From positions 1 to 32,382 of IMG/VR virus record IMGVR_UViG_3300022934_000091: a stretch of 32,382 nt of DNA; one strand, given 5' to 3'. Source of the DNA: a virus. Made by a program: the position numbers and the translations under genes. Under the pieces are notes generated by a model. That model was given only the letters and a program-made list of their open reading frames with translations, ran no database searches and had not been told where the DNA came from. Below are positions 712-30,864 of the stretch, in pieces (the stretch's first letter is position 1; each line of letters begins with the position of its first letter).

Positions 712-2554
712 TCGCGAAAAGCTCAAAAAGGCTGCATTTTTGGCGTTCAAGCCGCCAAAAAAGATGACTTTAAGCGAATGGGCGGATAGTTATGCGTATT
801 TGAGTTCAGAGTCGAGTGCGGAAGGTGGCAGATGGCACACGTTGCCTTACCAGAAGGGAATTATGGATGCAATCACAGATCCGAAGATCGAGCAGATCAC
901 GGTGATGAAATCTGCCCGTGTTGGATATTCTAAGATTCTAAATCATGTTGCAGCGTATCATATTCATCAAGATCCATGCCCTCTTATGATAGTTCAACCG
1001 ACTATCGAGGACGCGCAAGGTTACTCGAAAGAAGAGATCGCGCCGATGTTGCGTGATACGCCGTGCTTGCGTGGTTTGGTCAGTGAGGCGAAGTCGAAGG
1101 ATGGTGCCAACACGATCCTGCAGAAGCAATTCCCTGGCGGGAGTTTGAGCTTGGTAGGTGCGAACAGTCCACGCGGATTCCGTCGCGTCAGCCGCCGCGT
1201 TGTGCTGTTTGACGAGATTGATGGCTACCCGGCATCAGCTGGTACGGAAGGTGATCAGATCAAGCTTGGTATCAGGCGGACGGAGTACTACTGGAACCGC
1301 AAGATCGTCGCGGGAAGTACGCCAACAGTGAAGGACTTCAGCCGGGTGGAGCGCATGTTCCAGCAGGGTGATCAGCGGCGATATTTTGTGCCCTGCGCGG
1401 AATGTGGGCACATGCAGTATTTGAAATGGGCAAACATCAGGTGGATTGACAATGATCCAGACACTGCGAGCTATGCGTGCGAGAGCTGTGGCGTGCTCAT
1501 CCCGCATTCAAAAAAGCGATGGATGGTGGAGCGTGGCGAGTGGAGAGCTACGGCGCCTGGCAATGGGAAGCATGTGTCGTTTCATATCTGGGCGGCGTAT
1601 AGCTACAGCCCGAACGCAACATGGCCGAACTTGGTTGAAGAATTTTTAGACGCAAAAAATGACGCAGAACAATTAAAGACGTTTGTGAATACGGTGCTTG
1701 GTGAGTCCTGGGAGGACGAGTATGCGTCGAAGGTTGGCGCGGATGCGTTGAGCGAACGTGCAGCGACCGAGGAATATCAGCAGGGCATTGCGCCGGCTGA
1801 TTGCTTGTTGCTGACGATTGGCTGCGACGTGCAGGACGATCGATTGTCGTTGAGTGTGTGGGGCTGGGGCCGTGAGGAACAGGGCTGGTTGATCGATCGC
1901 GTTGTGATTTATGGCGACCCAAGCCGACCGGATGTGTGGAAGCAGTTGGATGAGATTCTGCAAGCGCCGTATGAGGGCGAGGGCGATCGGAAGCTGAAGG
2001 TGATGGTGACGGCGATCGACTCTGGCGGCCACCACACGGCAGAGGTTTACCAGTATGCGAGGGAGCGCCAGGGGATGGGCGTGATTGCGATCAAGGGCAT
2101 GGCACAGAAAAATAAGCCGCCGATTGGTAAGGCGAGCAAGGTGGATCTGAATGCGAAGGGCAGGACGCTGAAAAAGGGAGCGCAGGTATTTCCGGTTGGA
2201 TCTGACACGGTGAAGTCACTGCTGTTTGGGCGACTGAAGCACAACGATCCAGGGCCAGGGTATTTGCATTTTTACCCAACAGTTGGAACAGAATATTTCC
2301 AGGAGTTGACCGCAGAAAAGCAGGTAATGAGATTCAAGAACGGCTTTCCGGAAAGGATATGGGTAAAGAAAAGCAGCGCAAGAAACGAAGCGCTTGACGA
2401 GCTTGTTTATGCGTATGCAGCGTTAAATCGCGTGTATCAAATCAAAGATCGCCGAACGTTGTGGGATCAGGTTGAGTCTGGTGCAACAGAGAAGCCGAAG
2501 AAGCGTGCGGCAGCGAAGAGGGGTACAGGAAGAAGTTTCATTAACCAGTGGTGA
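704..2554 (+). CDS. terL: Terminase large subunit, GpA family
   Basis: A 616-aa ATP-driven packaging motor and nuclease. Counting from ATG 704, a Walker A-like loop KSARVGYSK is at 69-77 and Walker B VVLFDE at 166-171. A four-cysteine zinc knuckle (C231, C234, C259, C262) sits between the ATPase and nuclease parts. Nuclease acidic residues are likely D375 (GCDVQDD), D439 (AIDSGGHH) and the Asp in NEALDELVYAY near the C-terminus. Length and motif order fit lambda gpA. A TTG at 692 in the same frame would add four residues, but ATG 704 gives the usual short overlap with terS. GpA-type terminases usually belong to cos-packaging phages, which suggests defined genome ends. Confidence 0.97.
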   Translation: MSNREKLKKAAFLAFKPPKKMTLSEWADSYAYLSSESSAEGGRWHTLPYQKGIMDAITDPKIEQITVMKSARVGYSKILNHVAAYHIHQDPCPLMIVQPTIEDAQGYSKEEIAPMLRDTPCLRGLVSEAKSKDGANTILQKQFPGGSLSLVGANSPRGFRRVSRRVVLFDEIDGYPASAGTEGDQIKLGIRRTEYYWNRKIVAGSTPTVKDFSRVERMFQQGDQRRYFVPCAECGHMQYLKWANIRWIDNDPDTASYACESCGVLIPHSKKRWMVERGEWRATAPGNGKHVSFHIWAAYSYSPNATWPNLVEEFLDAKNDAEQLKTFVNTVLGESWEDEYASKVGADALSERAATEEYQQGIAPADCLLLTIGCDVQDDRLSLSVWGWGREEQGWLIDRVVIYGDPSRPDVWKQLDEILQAPYEGEGDRKLKVMVTAIDSGGHHTAEVYQYARERQGMGVIAIKGMAQKNKPPIGKASKVDLNAKGRTLKKGAQVFPVGSDTVKSLLFGRLKHNDPGPGYLHFYPTVGTEYFQELTAEKQVMRFKNGFPERIWVKKSSARNEALDELVYAYAALNRVYQIKDRRTLWDQVESGATEKPKKRAAAKRGTGRSFINQW

Positions 2555-2564
2555 GCGTTACACT

Positions 2565-2595
2565 GGAGGAAATGTTGGCGTTTAGCCGGAAGTGA
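2565..2595 (+). promoter_or_regulatory. Strong SD with 7-codon mini-ORF overlapping the next start
   Basis: GGAGGA at 2565-2570 is the best ribosome site nearby, yet it lies 21 nt from the GTG start at 2592, too far to serve it directly. Just after it, ATG 2572 (or TTG 2575) opens a mini-ORF, MLAFSRK, whose TGA (2593-2595) overlaps that GTG start. In the frame of the downstream gene a TAG at 2583-2585 excludes an upstream start. Coupled re-initiation is a plausible reading; the ATG is closer to the SD than ideal. Confidence 0.4.
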
Positions 2596-3176
2596 ACATC
2601 CCCGCAACTATTGCTGCTGGCACGACTGTTGCGTGGATCGACGATGCAACTGTTGATGTATTCGGCGCTGCGGTAGATAATACGACACACAGTCTGACGT
2701 ATTACTTGCGCAGAAATGCGCCTTCTGCGGGCGTTACGGCGGTTGGCGTTGCGTATAACTCTGGATGGAAAGTAACGCTATCGGCGGCCACGACTGAGAC
2801 GATGGACGCTGGCGAGTGGTACTTCCAGGCGGTTGCCACGAATCTGTCCGATAGCACTGTCATTGAACTGGGGCGCGGAAGCCTTGTCGTTGAAGCTTCG
2901 CTGGTCTACAGCCAAGGGCCTGGCGCCTACGATGGCCGATCGCAGCTCCAGAAAGATCTTGATGCTGTGCAAGCAGCGATCCGCACAATTATTAGCGGTG
3001 GCGCAGTAGCTGAGTACCGAATTGGTACTCGCAACCTGAAGAGGTTCGAGCTGACAGAATTGATGGAGCTTGAATCTCGCTTGAAGGCACAGCTTGCTCG
3101 CGAGAAGAAAGCCGAGATGATTGCCAATAATCTTGGCAATCCACATTCGCTTTACGTTCGGTTCAATCAAGGCTGA
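2592..3176 (+). CDS. Head-tail connector, gpW-like with N-terminal beta domain
   Basis: A 194-aa protein in the slot of lambda W, between large terminase and portal. Residues about 1-105 look like a beta-sandwich. Residues about 112-185 are helical and follow the gpW pattern: a helix (QKDLDAVQAAIRTII), a short beta hairpin (AVAEYRIGTRNLKRFEL), a second helix and a basic tail. gpW (about 68 aa) plugs the portal and helps form the tail joint, so this would be gpW with an added domain. The start is GTG, fixed by an in-frame TAG seven nt upstream. Its stop overlaps the portal ATG (TGATG). Assignment is by position and secondary-structure pattern, not by a search. Confidence 0.72.
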   Translation: MNIPATIAAGTTVAWIDDATVDVFGAAVDNTTHSLTYYLRRNAPSAGVTAVGVAYNSGWKVTLSAATTETMDAGEWYFQAVATNLSDSTVIELGRGSLVVEASLVYSQGPGAYDGRSQLQKDLDAVQAAIRTIISGGAVAEYRIGTRNLKRFELTELMELESRLKAQLAREKKAEMIANNLGNPHSLYVRFNQG

Positions 3177-4669
3177 TGGGATTCCGTACTCGATTTCTGC
3201 GCAGACTTGGCCTGCAGCCGATCCCCAGATCACTGCCGCCAGTGCGTCGTCGGCGTAATTATGCAGGCGCAATTATCAGCCGTCTGACGAGTGACTGGAT
3301 GTCATCTCAGGCAAGTGCTGACGCTGAGATTCGTACCAGCCTGCGAAAGCTGCGCGACCGCAGCCGCGAGATGGTGCGGAACAATCCGTACGCAAAGCAG
3401 GCTAAGCGGACGACGCAGATCAATGTGGTTGGTAGCGGCATCAAGTTGCAGTCGCAAGTGCAGCAGCTTCGCGGTCGAAAGCTGAATGATTCAGTGAATC
3501 GGTTGATTGAAGAGAAGTGGAATGCTTGGTGTCGCGCTGAGAATTGCGATGTTGCTGGTCGCCATAACTTCCACATGATGGAATGGTTGGCGGTTGGTGC
3601 ATTACCGGAATCCGGCGAGGCACTGTTCCGGATTGTTCGTCGTCCATTTGGTGGCAGCCGAGTACCTCTGGCGCTGGAGATGCTTGAGGCTGATGTATTG
3701 GACGAGGAATATCAAGGTCCGACGTTGGCGCGGAACAATGAATGGCGGATGGGTGTTGAGATCAACGAATGGGGTCGTCCGGTTCGGTATGCGTTCTTGA
3801 CGAGGCATCCAGGTGATTACTGGTTCCAGAATGTTGAGCAGAAAGGCGGCAAGCATGTCTTCTTGCCAGCAGAGGACGTAATCCATCTGTTTATTCCTGA
3901 GCGCCCGCAGCAGCATCGCGGTGTGCCGTGGTTCCATCCTGTGATGGCCGATGCGCATCAGCTGCAGGGTTACGAGGAAGCCGCTGTGATTCGAGCCCGT
4001 GCAGGTGCATCGATCATGGGATTTGTGACATCACCTGAAGGCGAGCTTGATGGCGATGACGTTGAGGGCGAACGCCGCATTTCGGAGTTCGAGCCTGGGA
4101 TGTTCAAGTATTTGGAACCAGGCCAGAACGTGACGGTGCCTGACATTGACTCACCGGATCAGCAGTATGAGATGTTCGTGCGCAATAAAGTGCGCAGGTT
4201 TGCAAGTGGCTTTGGATGTAGCTACGAAACCCTAAGTCGTGATTTTAGCAATACTAATTACAGCAGCAGCAGGTTAAGTTTACTCGAAGACCGCGAGCAC
4301 TGGAAAGTCGTGCAGCGGTACATGATTGAGCATTTTCATACTCGTATTTTTAGGGAATGGCTGAGTCTTTCGGTGCTTGCAGGTGATCTGCCGTTTGATG
4401 ATTTTGATCAGCGTCCTGAGCGTTATGACAATCCACGATGGACTGCCCGTGGATGGGATTGGGTTGATCCGTTGAAGGAGGCGAAGGCTTACCGCGAAAT
4501 GGAGCAGGCGGGTTATATGACCAAGGCGCAAATTGTCGCGAAGCTTGGCGGTGATTTTTACGACAACCTGGCGGAATTGTCGCGTGAGCAGCAAGCAGCG
4601 GAGGACCTTAACGTAGAGCTTGACCGTGACATCATTGAAGCAGATCCTGCAGTGGAGGTTATCGAGTAA
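3176..4669 (+). CDS. Portal protein, lambda family
   Basis: A 497-aa portal subunit forming the dodecameric ring through which DNA enters and leaves the head. The sequence follows the lambda gpB family: a basic N-terminus, RNNPYAKQAKRTTQINVVGSG near 68-88, DVIHLFIPERPQQHRGVPWF near 239-258, a central stem region with RARAGASIMGFV, and the conserved RRFASGFGCSYETLSRD with NYSSSR near 340-370. The C-terminal part is helical and acidic. It ends at TAATG, overlapping the next start by one base. Length is close to the usual size for the family. Confidence is high from the run of conserved motifs. Confidence 0.97.
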   Translation: MGFRTRFLRRLGLQPIPRSLPPVRRRRNYAGAIISRLTSDWMSSQASADAEIRTSLRKLRDRSREMVRNNPYAKQAKRTTQINVVGSGIKLQSQVQQLRGRKLNDSVNRLIEEKWNAWCRAENCDVAGRHNFHMMEWLAVGALPESGEALFRIVRRPFGGSRVPLALEMLEADVLDEEYQGPTLARNNEWRMGVEINEWGRPVRYAFLTRHPGDYWFQNVEQKGGKHVFLPAEDVIHLFIPERPQQHRGVPWFHPVMADAHQLQGYEEAAVIRARAGASIMGFVTSPEGELDGDDVEGERRISEFEPGMFKYLEPGQNVTVPDIDSPDQQYEMFVRNKVRRFASGFGCSYETLSRDFSNTNYSSSRLSLLEDREHWKVVQRYMIEHFHTRIFREWLSLSVLAGDLPFDDFDQRPERYDNPRWTARGWDWVDPLKEAKAYREMEQAGYMTKAQIVAKLGGDFYDNLAELSREQQAAEDLNVELDRDIIEADPAVEVIE

Positions 4670-7143
4670 TGCCTGCAATGCCGACCGAAGGAATGCGCGA
4701 AGAAGCGCGTCGATACCGGGAATGGAAGAAAGAAGGCCGCAAAGGCGGCACAGATGTTGCATCCCGTCGCGCAACTAAAATTCTCTCGGGCAATGAGCTA
4801 AGCGACGACACTATTGTGACGATGAGCGCTTGGTTTGCTCGTCACGAGGTGGACAAACAGGCGGAAGGATTTAGCCCCGGAGAGGATGGCTACCCATCAC
4901 CAGGTCGTGTGGCATGGGCTGCTTGGGGTGGCGATGCAGGTAAAAGCTGGGCGGACAAGCACCGCAAAAGTATCGACCGAGCGGCTGATGATATTAAAGA
5001 GGATGAGTCTATAGACTCTGTAACGAATAAACCTGAGTCACTGGAGATGGAACAGGAACACGAAAGGGCCGAGCCCGATGCACTGAAGGTAGGCGATTAC
5101 GTTTCTTGGAATTCCTCCGGTGGTCGCGCTCGTGGTTTGATCGAAAAGGTTGAGCGTGACGGCAGCATTAACGTGCCTGACTCTGAGTTCACTGTTAATG
5201 GCACGGCAGATGATCCTGCTGCGTTGATTTGTGTGTATCGCCCTACCGGAGAAGGTGGCAGCTACGAGAAGACTGATACTCGTGTTGGGCATCGATTTAG
5301 CACACTGACCAAGATTGAGCCCTTGCGTTCAGCCGAAGATGTGACTGAGGCTCGATCCGAGGACGTTGCTGAAAAGCACCAAACTCGCGACATTGAAGGC
5401 TCTAAATTCAAGCGCGTTGAAGCCACGAACTTCAACATGCTCGACGAGCGGAGCATGGAGTTTCCATTCAGCTCCGAGTATCCCGTGTCTCGTTATTTCG
5501 GAAACGAGATTTTGAGCCATGGAATGGAGTCCGCGAATCTTTCGCGGCTCAATGATGGCGCACCGCTTTTATATAACCATGATCCAGATCGCATGATCGG
5601 CGTTGTCGAACGTGCATGGATTGATGGTGATAAAAAACGCGGTTACGCCAAGGTGCGTTTCTCGCGCAATCAATTTGCGCAAGAAGTGCTCCAAGACGTT
5701 CGCGATGGCATTCTTCGCGGCGTTTCTTTCGGCTACTCCATTGATAAAATGGAAGAGCGCGAAGATAACTTCGTGGCGACCAATTGGTCTCCCTACGAAG
5801 TATCACTGGCTGTTATCCCAGCCGACCCCACTGTCGGAATTGGTCGTTCTCTTGAGGACACTGATTCCGAGCCTGCGGCTTCAACCGCATCTCCTGCAAA
5901 CACTATGACTGAACCTGTCATGGACAACACTCCTGACCTGGAGGTGATCCGGTCCGAGGCCGTAGAGGCCGAGCGTACCCGGACTGCTTCTATCTCCAGC
6001 ATGGGCGAGCGTCACAAGCTCCCCGAATTGGCACGCGAACTCATCGATGGCGGCAAGTCTGTCGATGAAGCTCGTGCTGCATTCCTCGACAAAATCGGCA
6101 CCCAAAAAGTGGAACATCGCATCGATGCCAACGATGTTGGCCTTTCCGACAAGGAAACTCGTAGCTTCAGCTTCATCAAGGCTCTGAACTACCTCGCCAA
6201 TCCTGGCGATCAATCTGCACGCCGTGCTGCTGAGTTCGAGATCGAAGTCGGCAAAGCTGCTGCAAAGCAGTACGAGCGTTCGTCTAACGGCATTGTCGTC
6301 CCGAACGAAGTGCTGCGTCGTGACTTGGTTGTTGGCACCCCGACTGCTGGCGGCAACCTCGTCGATGATGTGCTGCTGTCCGGTAGCTTCATCGATCTGC
6401 TGCGCAATCGTCTGGCCCTGTCTCAGGCTGGCATGACGATGCTGAGCGGCCTGCAAGGCAACATTTCGATTCCTCGTCAGACATCGGCCGCGACTGCTTA
6501 CTGGGTTGGTGAAAACTCTTCTCCGACCGAAAGCCAGCAGGCGATCGATCAGGTGAATATGTCGCCCAAGACCTGTGGCGCCTTTGTTGACTATTCCCGT
6601 CGCCTGCTGCTGCAGTCCAGCATTGACGTTGAAGGCATGGTCCGCAATGACCTGGCCCGCGTGATCGCGCTCGAACTGGACCGCGTTGGTATCTACGGCA
6701 CCGGCTCTTCTAACCAGCCTCTGGGTATCAACAACACCAGCGGCATTGGTTCGCAGACTCTGACCAGCTTCGGCACCTTCGCTGAGTACATCGGCATGGA
6801 AACCGATGTGGCTGTTGCTAACGCTGATGCCGGCTCCCTGCGTTACATCGTGAACGCTTCTGCTCGCGGTGCGCTGAAGAGCACCGAGAAGGCATCGAAC
6901 ACCGCTCAGTTCGTGTTCGAGAACAACGAGATCAACGGCTATCCGGTGATCGTCTCGAACCAACTGCAGAACAACGATGCACTGTTCGGTGACTTCAGCA
7001 TGTTGATCATGGGCATGTGGTCTGGCCTGGATCTGACTGTTGATCCTTATGCAGGCGCTACTGCTGGCACCGTCCGCATCATTGCACTGCAAGATGTTGA
7101 CTTTGCTGTCAAGCAAGCTGGTGCATTCTGCCTGGCCACCTGA
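4669..7143 (+). CDS. Four-part fusion: N-domain, Tudor-like, prohead protease, major capsid protein
   Basis: An 824-aa polyprotein. Residues about 7-105 form a small domain I recognise from phage head genes (MREEARRYREWKKEGRKGGT, later SPGEDGYPSPGRVAWAAWGG). Residues about 138-220 match the Hva1/Tudor-like fold (KVGDYVSWNSSGGRARG...TADDPAA...GHRFSTLTKI). Residues about 235-400 are an HK97-type serine prohead protease with likely catalytic His304 (YNHD) and Ser353 (RGVSFGYS), 49 residues apart. From about 413 a helical scaffold-like delta region leads into an HK97-fold major capsid protein (about 535-824; VGTPTAGGNLVDD, IPRQTSAATAYWVGE, YGTGSSNQPLGI). No stop, frameshift or well-placed internal start separates protease from capsid, so the capsid subunit is presumably freed by self-cleavage. 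In most phages protease and capsid are separate genes. Confidence 0.95.
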   Translation: MPAMPTEGMREEARRYREWKKEGRKGGTDVASRRATKILSGNELSDDTIVTMSAWFARHEVDKQAEGFSPGEDGYPSPGRVAWAAWGGDAGKSWADKHRKSIDRAADDIKEDESIDSVTNKPESLEMEQEHERAEPDALKVGDYVSWNSSGGRARGLIEKVERDGSINVPDSEFTVNGTADDPAALICVYRPTGEGGSYEKTDTRVGHRFSTLTKIEPLRSAEDVTEARSEDVAEKHQTRDIEGSKFKRVEATNFNMLDERSMEFPFSSEYPVSRYFGNEILSHGMESANLSRLNDGAPLLYNHDPDRMIGVVERAWIDGDKKRGYAKVRFSRNQFAQEVLQDVRDGILRGVSFGYSIDKMEEREDNFVATNWSPYEVSLAVIPADPTVGIGRSLEDTDSEPAASTASPANTMTEPVMDNTPDLEVIRSEAVEAERTRTASISSMGERHKLPELARELIDGGKSVDEARAAFLDKIGTQKVEHRIDANDVGLSDKETRSFSFIKALNYLANPGDQSARRAAEFEIEVGKAAAKQYERSSNGIVVPNEVLRRDLVVGTPTAGGNLVDDVLLSGSFIDLLRNRLALSQAGMTMLSGLQGNISIPRQTSAATAYWVGENSSPTESQQAIDQVNMSPKTCGAFVDYSRRLLLQSSIDVEGMVRNDLARVIALELDRVGIYGTGSSNQPLGINNTSGIGSQTLTSFGTFAEYIGMETDVAVANADAGSLRYIVNASARGALKSTEKASNTAQFVFENNEINGYPVIVSNQLQNNDALFGDFSMLIMGMWSGLDLTVDPYAGATAGTVRIIALQDVDFAVKQAGAFCLAT
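5940..5950 (+). promoter_or_regulatory. SD-like sequence inside the protease-capsid linker
   Basis: GGAGGTGATCC is an 11-base perfect complement to the usual bacterial 16S 3' end. It lies inside the fusion gene at the border of protease and capsid delta region, encoding part of DLEVIRS. No in-frame start lies 5-12 nt downstream; the next ATG is at 6001. It might slow ribosomes between the two parts, or be chance. Confidence 0.3.
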
Positions 7144-7175
7144 TAACAGGTGATTTGTTTCATCGCTTTTGACTC

Positions 7176-7394
7176 ATGAAAGTTCAAATCCTGAGGCAAG
7201 TGATGATCTCTGGTGAGCCCGCTTCGGCGGGCTCCATTATGGAGGTCAGCAACGAGGATGCTCAGATCCTGATTGGACTCAAGAAGGCTGTTGAGTACAA
7301 GGAAGAGCCAGTTGTATGCCCGGCTAAGCCACCGGCAAAGGAGGAGTCTGCGGCTCCAGCTAAAAAAACCACCACTCGACGGAGCACTAAGTAA
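7176..7394 (+). CDS. Small head-module protein of unknown function
   Basis: A 72-aa protein directly after the capsid gene. The N-terminal 45 residues read as a compact beta domain (MKVQILRQVMISGEPASAGS, then EVSNEDAQILIGLKKAVEY), a pattern common in small proteins next to phage capsid genes. The C-terminus is a low-complexity tail rich in Pro, Ala, Lys and Thr. The position corresponds to lambda FI, but no homology is claimed. It has a one-base overlap with the next gene (TAATG). A very stable hairpin lies inside its first third. ATG 7239 (residue 22) is a possible alternative start behind that hairpin, but would cut the beta domain. Confidence 0.75.
   Translation: MKVQILRQVMISGEPASAGSIMEVSNEDAQILIGLKKAVEYKEEPVVCPAKPPAKEESAAPAKKTTTRRSTK
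7215..7234 (+). other. Stable UUCG hairpin downstream of the capsid gene
   Basis: GAGCCCGC and GCGGGCTC form a perfect 8-bp GC-rich stem closed by a C(UUCG)G tetraloop. There is no U-run after it, so it is not a classical terminator. It lies within codons 14-20 of the small gene after the capsid gene. It could protect the capsid mRNA 3' end or lower expression of the next genes; this is inference. Confidence 0.6.
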
Positions 7395-29667: not shown

Positions 29668-30186
29668 ATGATTTGGCCTGACTGGAAGATCGAGCAAGCC
29701 TGTGAAGCGGAGCCGCCACTAATCTGGCCGTATCGCAAGGAGCAGCTAGGCCCTGCCAGCTACGATCTGAGGCTTGGCAACACGATCATGATCGAGGTTG
29801 CAGACACACCAGAGCTACAAGAACTGGATATTTCCGGCAAAACCAAAGAGCATCCATACTTGTTAGAACCAGGCCACTTCATGCTTGCAGAAAGTCAAGA
29901 AGTATTTAACATCCCAACTTGGGTAGCAGCCGATTTCAAGCTCAAGTCTTCACGGGCTAGGAGTGGGCTGGAACATCTTCACGCGGGATTCGCGGATCCC
30001 GGATGGCACGGCAGCCGGCTCACGATGGAGTTCGTGAATATGCGTCGTTTTCATCCGCAGCGTTTATATCCTGGCTTCCTTGTCGGACAAATGGTGTTCA
30101 CCCAGATGCTCGGAACGCCTCTGACAAGCTACGCACAAACAGGCCGCTACAACGGAGACCTGAGGGTAACGGCAAGCAAGGGGTAG
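29668..30186 (+). CDS. dCTP deaminase / dUTPase-family protein
   Basis: A 172-aa protein of the dCTP deaminase family. It has LGPASYDLRLGN near 28-38, KSSRARSGL at 93-101 (Ser94 and Arg98 line up with family Ser111 and Arg115), DPGWHG at 110-115 and Glu121 in LTMEFVN, aligned with catalytic Glu138 of the E. coli enzyme. The Arg98-Glu121 spacing of 23 equals that of the E. coli enzyme. The end has GRYNGD, part of the substrate loop. It would make dUMP precursor or remove dUTP, helping keep uracil out of phage DNA. ATG lies directly after the endolysin stop. Deaminase versus dUTPase versus both cannot be told from sequence alone. Confidence 0.88.
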   Translation: MIWPDWKIEQACEAEPPLIWPYRKEQLGPASYDLRLGNTIMIEVADTPELQELDISGKTKEHPYLLEPGHFMLAESQEVFNIPTWVAADFKLKSSRARSGLEHLHAGFADPGWHGSRLTMEFVNMRRFHPQRLYPGFLVGQMVFTQMLGTPLTSYAQTGRYNGDLRVTASKG

Positions 30187-30266
30187 CAAAGGTCTCGACA
30201 GCTAGCATGAGTGTGTCGGGTCGCGCACATTTACGTGGCTGAAGAATTCAGGCAGTGCAGGCGAAG

Positions 30267-30282
30267 TTCTCTATGCAGAGAA
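30267..30282 (+). other. Inverted repeat before the HNH start
   Basis: TTCTCT, loop ATGC, AGAGAA form a perfect 6-bp hairpin ending 9 nt before ATG 30292. The purine-rich AGAGAA arm could be the ribosome site and so be hidden in the stem, or the site may bind a regulator. Confidence 0.4.
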
Positions 30283-30291
30283 TCTTTGCCA

Positions 30292-30864
30292 ATGAATCAG
30301 CTCACGTTAGTAAATGGCAGTTGGATGTGTGAACCAAATAAATGCCCAAGACGGGCGCCACAGCAAGAAGAATCAACGTATCGCGTCGAAAAACGCTACT
30401 TAAACGTCGCAAAAATTATGTTTTTGAGTTCGGGCGCTAACGGTCAAGATCCAGATGAGTTTGCAGAAAACTTTGCAGCTAGACTTGAAGAGTTGACCGA
30501 GGAGATAATTGATCTTGACGTTGAGGTTTACCCACTGGAAGGCGGCTTTATTGGTCATGCGATTGAAGGCTCTGAGCTAGTACCGAAGAAAACAAGCAAA
30601 AACAGATTCCGCAAGCAGATCTTCGAGGAATGGGATCATCGCTGCGCATACTGCGACAAGCCAGCAGATACGCTTGACCATGTCGTACCGAAGTCGAAGG
30701 GTGGTATGACCGTAAAGTCGAACCTGATTACCGCCTGCCGGATCTGCAACGGCTCCAAATCGGACAAGCCCTACAAAGAATGGTATAGAGATCAACCGTT
30801 CTGGGACCAGGCTCGTGCAGATGCTATTGAGTATTGGCTTCAGAACGGAACTTTAGATCAGTAA
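30292..30864 (+). CDS. HNH endonuclease
   Basis: A 190-aa protein. Residues about 105-160 form the beta-beta-alpha metal HNH motif: zinc ligands Cys118/Cys121 (CAYC) and Cys149/Cys152 (CRIC), central Asp129-His130 (LDHVVPKSKGG) and Asn144 (SNLI). Residues 1-100 are not recognised but contain C13 and C18 (WMCEPNKCPR) and an acidic helix. A GTG at 30211 in the same frame is a less likely start. It could nick or cut DNA in packaging (HNH proteins act with terminases in HK97-like phages) or be a free-standing homing enzyme. Its 3' end overlaps the convergent minus gene by 7 bp. The 105-bp gap before it holds no obvious promoter. Confidence 0.9.
   Translation: MNQLTLVNGSWMCEPNKCPRRAPQQEESTYRVEKRYLNVAKIMFLSSGANGQDPDEFAENFAARLEELTEEIIDLDVEVYPLEGGFIGHAIEGSELVPKKTSKNRFRKQIFEEWDHRCAYCDKPADTLDHVVPKSKGGMTVKSNLITACRICNGSKSDKPYKEWYRDQPFWDQARADAIEYWLQNGTLDQ

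Follow-up and report, generated by a model that had tools for sequence, protein, structure and literature searches.

Phages whose prohead protease is fused in frame to the major capsid protein raise the question how they avoid making one protease for every subunit of the shell. Such a fusion is found in the IMG/VR virus record IMGVR_UViG_3300022934_000091, of which positions 1 to 32,382 were analysed (the window in the following). The open reading frame (ORF) concerned (4669..7143, + strand) encodes 824 amino acids (aa, 90.0 kDa), has no internal stop and joins an S78-type protease to an HK97-fold capsid. An initial annotation had concluded that protease and two further domains are produced along with each capsid subunit in a 1:1 ratio. 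That conclusion is not supported in view of a conserved start codon behind the protease and of the load that the prohead would have to pack; it is probably wrong, and with it the stoichiometric puzzle probably dissolves. We consider it likely, judging from sequence comparison, that the gene encodes two nested in-frame proteins, a minor full-length one and a major one, composed of the delta (scaffold) region and the capsid, which would start at Met418. A conserved internal start is a testable answer to the question posed above.

In the scheme proposed here translation from nucleotide (nt) 4669 would yield a minor full-length protein made up of a helical module named N1, a Tudor-like domain, the S78 protease, delta and the capsid. 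Initiation at Met418 (5920..5922, +), just past the protease, would give the major product, delta plus HK97-fold capsid, which is the equivalent of HK97 gp5 (proposed nested gene 5920..7143, +, residues 418-824, 407 aa, 43.6 kDa). Both products would co-assemble via their common capsid part, so that a limited number of subunits would bring protease into the prohead. A cut by the protease near residue 560 would then release a shell subunit of 264 aa, and delta and the N-terminal fragments would leave; N1 and the Tudor-like module, as accessories of the protease, would enter the head at the protease dose. We infer start use, product ratio, cleavage site and fragment fate in this scheme as the most likely course of events. 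The portal gene (3176..4669, +) adjoins the fusion on its 5' side, and its stop codon overlaps the first ATG of the fusion (TAATG), which would fit a full-length protein made at a low level and in coupling with the portal. A GGAGG is located 5' of this ATG within the end of the portal gene (4654..4658, +).

The evidence for an internal start comes mainly from related fusions. A tblastn search matched 127 phage records, 10 of them with a query coverage of at least 80%, and for the window, CRP-811-like, CRP-406-like and S-CBS3-like groups of contigs the best 80 of a larger number of matches were taken each (79 distinct ones in the S-CBS3-like group). In the protein comparison the linker between protease and capsid is otherwise variable, yet a Met is present in every relative first compared, and in the relatives GGAGG or AAGGAG often stands 5' of its codon. 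For counting, a Shine-Dalgarno core was defined as AGGA, GGAG or GAGG 4-17 nt upstream of a linker Met, and identical linker DNA was collapsed; short sequences had been dropped in three groups (9/69, 1/80 and 7/79 loci). The core precedes the linker Met in 58/58 distinct linkers of the CRP-811-like and in 52/52 of the CRP-406-like contigs, in 38 of 49 Persinger-like linkers (46 of which have a Met in range) and in 13 of 20 linkers from isolate phages, the isolates without it being S-CBS1, S-CBS3, S-LBS1, Mica, MQ-4, Mano and Murka. Codon shuffles that preserve the amino acids give expectations of 38.6, 17.2, 14.7 and 4.0 for these four groups, and at the other internal Mets of the same ORFs the core was found in 12.9%, 8.2%, 7.9% and 6.0% of the cases, respectively.

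The position of the core is narrow as well. In a search of 40 nt its distance to the ATG was 5-11 nt at 126 of 144 distinct sites, with a peak at 6-8 nt, and among the other Mets 229 of 2943 have it at 4-12 nt (odds ratio 83 in Fisher's test, without correction for relatedness). It is kept across differing upstream hexapeptides in 30/30 distinct CRP-811-like and 26/26 distinct CRP-406-like sequences. Since the encoding peptides differ while the core stays, selection acts on the nucleotides. An internal in-frame start after the protease is very probably conserved in these relatives, and it would supply a capsid precursor free of protease.

That protease-capsid fusions exist, as the initial annotation had stated, is borne out by two named families, NF045541 (S78-type) and NF045540 (with a ClpP-like protease). 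Their genes above the curated cut-off were collected from 289 and 274 searched genomes, and 14 of the 15 have a junction Met with core 428-489 residues from the end (11/12 in NF045541 and 3/3 in NF045540), the range of 420-490 residues to the end having been chosen after inspection of the data; for two of the genes 400-500 was used. The sole miss is L603, and, judging by their junctions, L597 and L600 are almost duplicates. At other internal Mets of these genes the core occurs in 5 of 176 cases. In a locus from an Anaerolinea bin (L414, 685-2817) a protease ORF, TAA, GGAGACAAA and the capsid ATG follow one another in the same frame, one stop apart, and AAGGAG precedes the capsid ATG. The alignment of the L414 capsid protein with the window begins at about residue 422, and we read the protease of this locus as ClpP-like from its translation. 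This locus likely represents the pre-fusion state; its site resembles those within the fused genes. A further candidate for an unfused relative, L240, was rejected, as its stop falls inside homologous sequence.

In the clade of the window itself, which consists of the window and 80 viral contigs, Met418 is present in 81/81 members. It lies 5-6 residues before the delta motif in all 27 distinct sequences, while the residues before it vary; Met accounts for 2-3% of the residues, which is the background for this conservation. In the S-CBS3-like clade 37 of 40 sequences have a Met ahead of the delta motif (36 at 5-6 residues, one at 8). Synonymous variation was expressed as observed/expected in 11-codon windows. 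The lowest value of the whole ORF is seen in the window clade from residue 424 on (0.18 vs a median of 1.01). Minima near the linker Met were also obtained for the S-CBS3-like clade (minimum at 410, Met at 409; 0.46), the CRP-406-like clade (341 and 355, Met at 356; 0.46) and the Persinger-like clade (200, Met at 216; 0.40). The linker with the proposed nested start (5818..5937, +, residues 384-423) is predicted to be disordered, with a predicted local distance difference test (pLDDT) score below 50, and a delta helix is predicted from residue 424 on, which fits the location of the start. These features would make Met418 the start in the window clade. As an alternative start Met413 was considered and rejected, because only part of the clade has a Met there and most other members have a Val.

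Several observations weigh against this interpretation. No Shine-Dalgarno site is located upstream of Met418. In the window clade the core was found at any linker Met in 7 of 52 linkers, with a shuffle expectation of 5.4, and the window has none; in the S-CBS3-like clade it was 5 of 57 against an expected 6.9. The synonymous minimum of the window clade lies partly downstream of Met418 and holds an unexplained element, and the lowest synonymous windows of the CRP-811-like clade lie elsewhere in the ORF. Among prophage-like loci (28 on genome contigs, of which five were taken and four usable) the core was present in 2 of 4, a weak result, and all counts are from related and hence non-independent sequences. 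Low RNA structure at the proposed start was dismissed as support. Compared with the other Mets, 28/28, 35/35 and 41/41 sites in three clades have less structure than half of them, and in two other clades only 33/47 and 18/37. In the window clade this is largely explained by amino-acid composition, since just 14 of 27 sites are less structured than synonymous shuffles; in the other two clades tested it was 28/35 and 37/42. By inspection, most other gene starts of the window phage also have no Shine-Dalgarno site.

The four modules that the initial annotation had read in one uninterrupted frame could be confirmed by Pfam, PHROGs and structure models. N1 (4681..4962, +, residues 5-98) is helical in the predicted structure and matches phrog_2859, a family of unknown function. 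The second module, a predicted Hva1/Tudor-like SH3-type barrel (5080..5319, +, residues 138-217), is assigned to the Pfam family PF11160 Hva1_TUDOR by a match at residues 142-187 (26.6 bits, cut-off 24.1). For residues 138-220, where a Tudor-like fold had been proposed, an AlphaFold model of residues 1-225 gave a seven-strand barrel at 144-216 with pLDDT values of mostly 80-89. Its best structural matches are all middling and include the Tudor domains of SETDB1 (Z 7.1) and PHF1 (Z 6.8) and Cryptococcus CNAG_02591 (Z 6.1, 25% identity), the Hva1 prototype; Foldseek returned no match to the barrel model at E 0.001 or better.

The S78 prohead protease domain (5431..5850, +, about residues 255-394) is assigned to Pfam Peptidase_S78 at residues 276-392 (43 bits, cut-off 21). 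Its His304 and Ser353, named in the initial annotation, are invariant in an alignment of 45 sequences. It is followed by the delta region (5920..6348, +, residues 418-560), which is helical from 424 on and whose end was set by the capsid chain of Dinoroseobacter phage R4C. The putative mature capsid (6349..7140, +, residues 561-824, 264 aa, 27.9 kDa) has the HK97 fold according to Pfam Phage_capsid (residues 561-823, 147.3 bits, cut-off 24.2), and its structural matches include 8gta_A (E 5e-13) as well as the HK97 and RcGTA capsids. PHROGs assigns residues 257-823 to phrog_617, 'major head protein'. Two structure models reached predicted template modelling (pTM) scores of 0.41 and 0.31, at which the relative placement of the domains is not reliable.

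The survey of relatives shows how the N-terminal modules are distributed; N1 and RPYPNEH are labels coined in this analysis. Within the window clade the Tudor module occurs in 81/81 members. It is combined with N1 in 56 members, namely the window itself and 55 contigs, of which two are truncated at the 5' end. With N1 and RPYPNEH it occurs in 15 and with RPYPNEH in five, and it stands alone in another five. These shares are skewed towards the query because only the best-scoring matches were taken. The full order of four modules was found in 55 of the 80 fetched clade contigs and in the isolated Roseobacter phage CRP-811; since CRP-811 shares both the fusion and the Tudor module, the window is not alone in this architecture. 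In CRP-821, N1 is accompanied by a stretch that matches DUF5824 below the threshold and by RPYPNEH, and R4C, RcCronus, S-LBS1, Mica, VP882 and others consist of protease and capsid alone without extra modules. Some fusions reach 974-985 aa. Pontimonas phage phiPsal1 encodes its capsid in a gene of its own, and its protease combines N1 with S78 and shows a HIPIP match below the threshold. Limnohabitans phage DC31 has N1 fused to an S78_2 protease and Tudor in the adjoining gene. Since N1 and Tudor are found on or beside unfused capsid proteases, we assign the N-terminal additions to the protease side of the fusion, where Tudor is one of several exchangeable modules.

Two peculiarities of single relatives may be mentioned. 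One clade member (L075, locus 1759-4650) has an extra module with cysteines (fusion residues 98-201), which lies between N1 and the module that follows and resembles the HIPIP-like stretch of other phage proteases; Pfam gave no HIPIP match for it. In Roseobacter phage CRP-823 two overlapping 'major capsid protein' genes are annotated (L101 2980-3696 and 3656-5908) in place of the single fusion of its close relatives. The break is located within the N-terminal modules and the protease-capsid part is intact. With the R4C protein as query no match was obtained among the viral contigs.

How the protease dose is set could also be explained without a second start. In a true 1:1 polyprotein only the full-length protein would be made, and N1, Tudor and protease would enter the prohead with every subunit, to be cut off and expelled afterwards. 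The single open frame without a stop is in line with this, and so are, for the window clade, the lack of a Shine-Dalgarno site ahead of Met418, as noted above, and a PHROGs scan of the 20 other ORFs of the window, which revealed no separate protease or scaffold gene. On the other side stand the start conserved in the linkers of relatives and in other fusion families, the invariance of Met418, and the mass. In 415 copies, residues 1-560 (62 kDa each) amount to 25.8 MDa, which is 70-109% of an assumed lumen with a radius of 190-220 A, a value taken over from HK97. Delta alone would occupy 18-27% of the same lumen, and a mixture with 5-20% of full-length protein 25-35% of it at 205 A; the relatives of 974-985 aa would be heavier still. 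Packing argues against the 1:1 ratio, and we regard such a polyprotein as improbable. That the frame is the product of an assembly or sequencing error that fused two genes is practically excluded. Nothing was found in favour of it, and the stop between residues 400 and 420 that such an error should have hidden is absent; the fusion is no joining error because all 80 clade relatives have an open frame across the linker, and isolated phages have it too. With regard to cleavage, the solved capsid chain of R4C (8gta) has 268 aa from a 629-aa gene and starts at the residue matching window residue 561, which suggests a cut at this place (PMC10276861, the part of the text available to us). A word search in the same part of that text gave neither 'cleav' nor 'protease' (PMC10276861).

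The unexplained element within the synonymous minimum is GGAGGTGATCC (5940..5950, +), located downstream of Met418 and exactly conserved in 80/81 clade members. It is a perfect complement of the 16S rRNA 3' end. The most constrained codons spell it, and at codons 425-428 the pairs compared do not differ by any synonymous change. That it is a general phage element was considered and set aside. A 14-mer around it matched at least 120 stretches, and 54 of the 117 loci checked carry it in the same capsid frame. That GGAGGTGATCC serves a start further downstream was rejected, as by inspection no start codon follows it at 4-15 nt in any frame. The element may cause a pause, aid the upstream initiation or do something else. 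If it were a programmed pause of the ribosome as the protease leaves the tunnel, helping its folding, Met418 would be no start in the window clade and the protease dose would be set otherwise. The near-perfect conservation in the most constrained codons, about 30 residues past the protease end at 394, and the missing start codon behind it speak for such a pause. Met418, however, is also invariant although the preceding residues vary, its position is homologous to the Shine-Dalgarno starts of other clades, and in the sister clade, the S-CBS3-like one, the Met is retained and coincides with the synonymous minimum; we judge this explanation rather unlikely. Going further than the two-product reading, one could propose that tailed-phage protease-capsid fusions generally keep, by convergence, a ratio-setting start at the old gene boundary, and that the window clade lost its upstream Shine-Dalgarno site and would be served by the 11-nt 16S complement about 20 nt downstream. 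We know of no precedent for a downstream start signal of that kind and give the extended proposal little credence. Another possibility concerns the N-terminal modules, which might be cargo that is retained in the mature head and delivered to the host. They differ and are exchanged among relatives, as is often seen in parts that face the host, and Tudor-type folds in other proteins bind peptides or nucleic acids. But the same modules occur on or beside the unfused capsid proteases of phiPsal1 and DC31, which makes a role as cargo quite unlikely. In the part of the R4C report available to us 12 virion components are given without such a part, though R4C lacks the modules (PMC10276861).

The fusion is preceded by terminases, a joining protein and the portal. 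Downstream of it are tail genes, together with genes for an endolysin, a dCTP deaminase and an HNH endonuclease, the latter two assigned by PHROGs at 29668-30186 and 30211-30864 of the window. About 250 nt (7144-7393) separate the capsid stop from the gene that follows and contain no listed ORF of at least 80 aa. The mechanical ORF listing also gave an antisense ORF of 411 aa (5881-7116, - strand) opposite the delta-capsid region, which is likely a by-product of codon use.

With two products from one gene, a single annotated 'major capsid protein' would in many phages probably stand for two proteins. The internal start would account for the tolerance of the fusion and for a junction that is constrained in spite of its disorder. 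It would also group the Tudor-like module and the others at the N-terminus with the protease, as swappable accessories at low dose. Protease-capsid fusions as well as nested in-frame starts are already known. A conserved start that yields the capsid precursor from within a fusion was not found reported, and for any internal start in a protease-capsid fusion no report was found in the open-licence literature.

Among the closest known proteins is the 'major capsid protein' of CRP-811 (XYH46322.1), which agrees with the window protein in all four modules and their order and is 45.5% identical to it over the whole length. CRP-811 has AAGGAG shortly before the linker ATG, whereas the window has none. 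In the 'major head protein' of the Synechococcus phages S-CBS1 and S-CBS3 (about 45% identity) N1, protease and capsid are fused, and the linker Met is without a Shine-Dalgarno site as in the window; a small RPYPNEH module takes the place of Tudor. The 629-aa fusion of R4C has GGAGG before its linker ATG and lacks the N1 and Tudor modules. The NCBIfam prohead protease-capsid fusions combine protease and HK97-fold capsid in one frame like the window, which shares the design of NF045541 and is not a member of it (176.2 bits at residues 259-523 only, cut-off 525); for NF045540, with its ClpP-like protease, the score is 16.5 bits against a cut-off of 475. With HK97 the window has the S78 protease, a delta-like helical region and the capsid fold in common. 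In HK97, however, gp4 (protease) and gp5 (delta plus capsid) are two genes, and in the window there is one frame; the size and layout of gp5 are close to those of the 407-aa nested product. In lambda C/Nu3 and Mu I/Z an in-frame internal start downstream of the head protease sets the levels of two products. The window clade has the conserved internal start codon of such a nested gene and lacks the upstream ribosome-binding site. While the nested product of lambda and Mu is a scaffold, the one proposed for the window would be the precursor of the major capsid protein itself.

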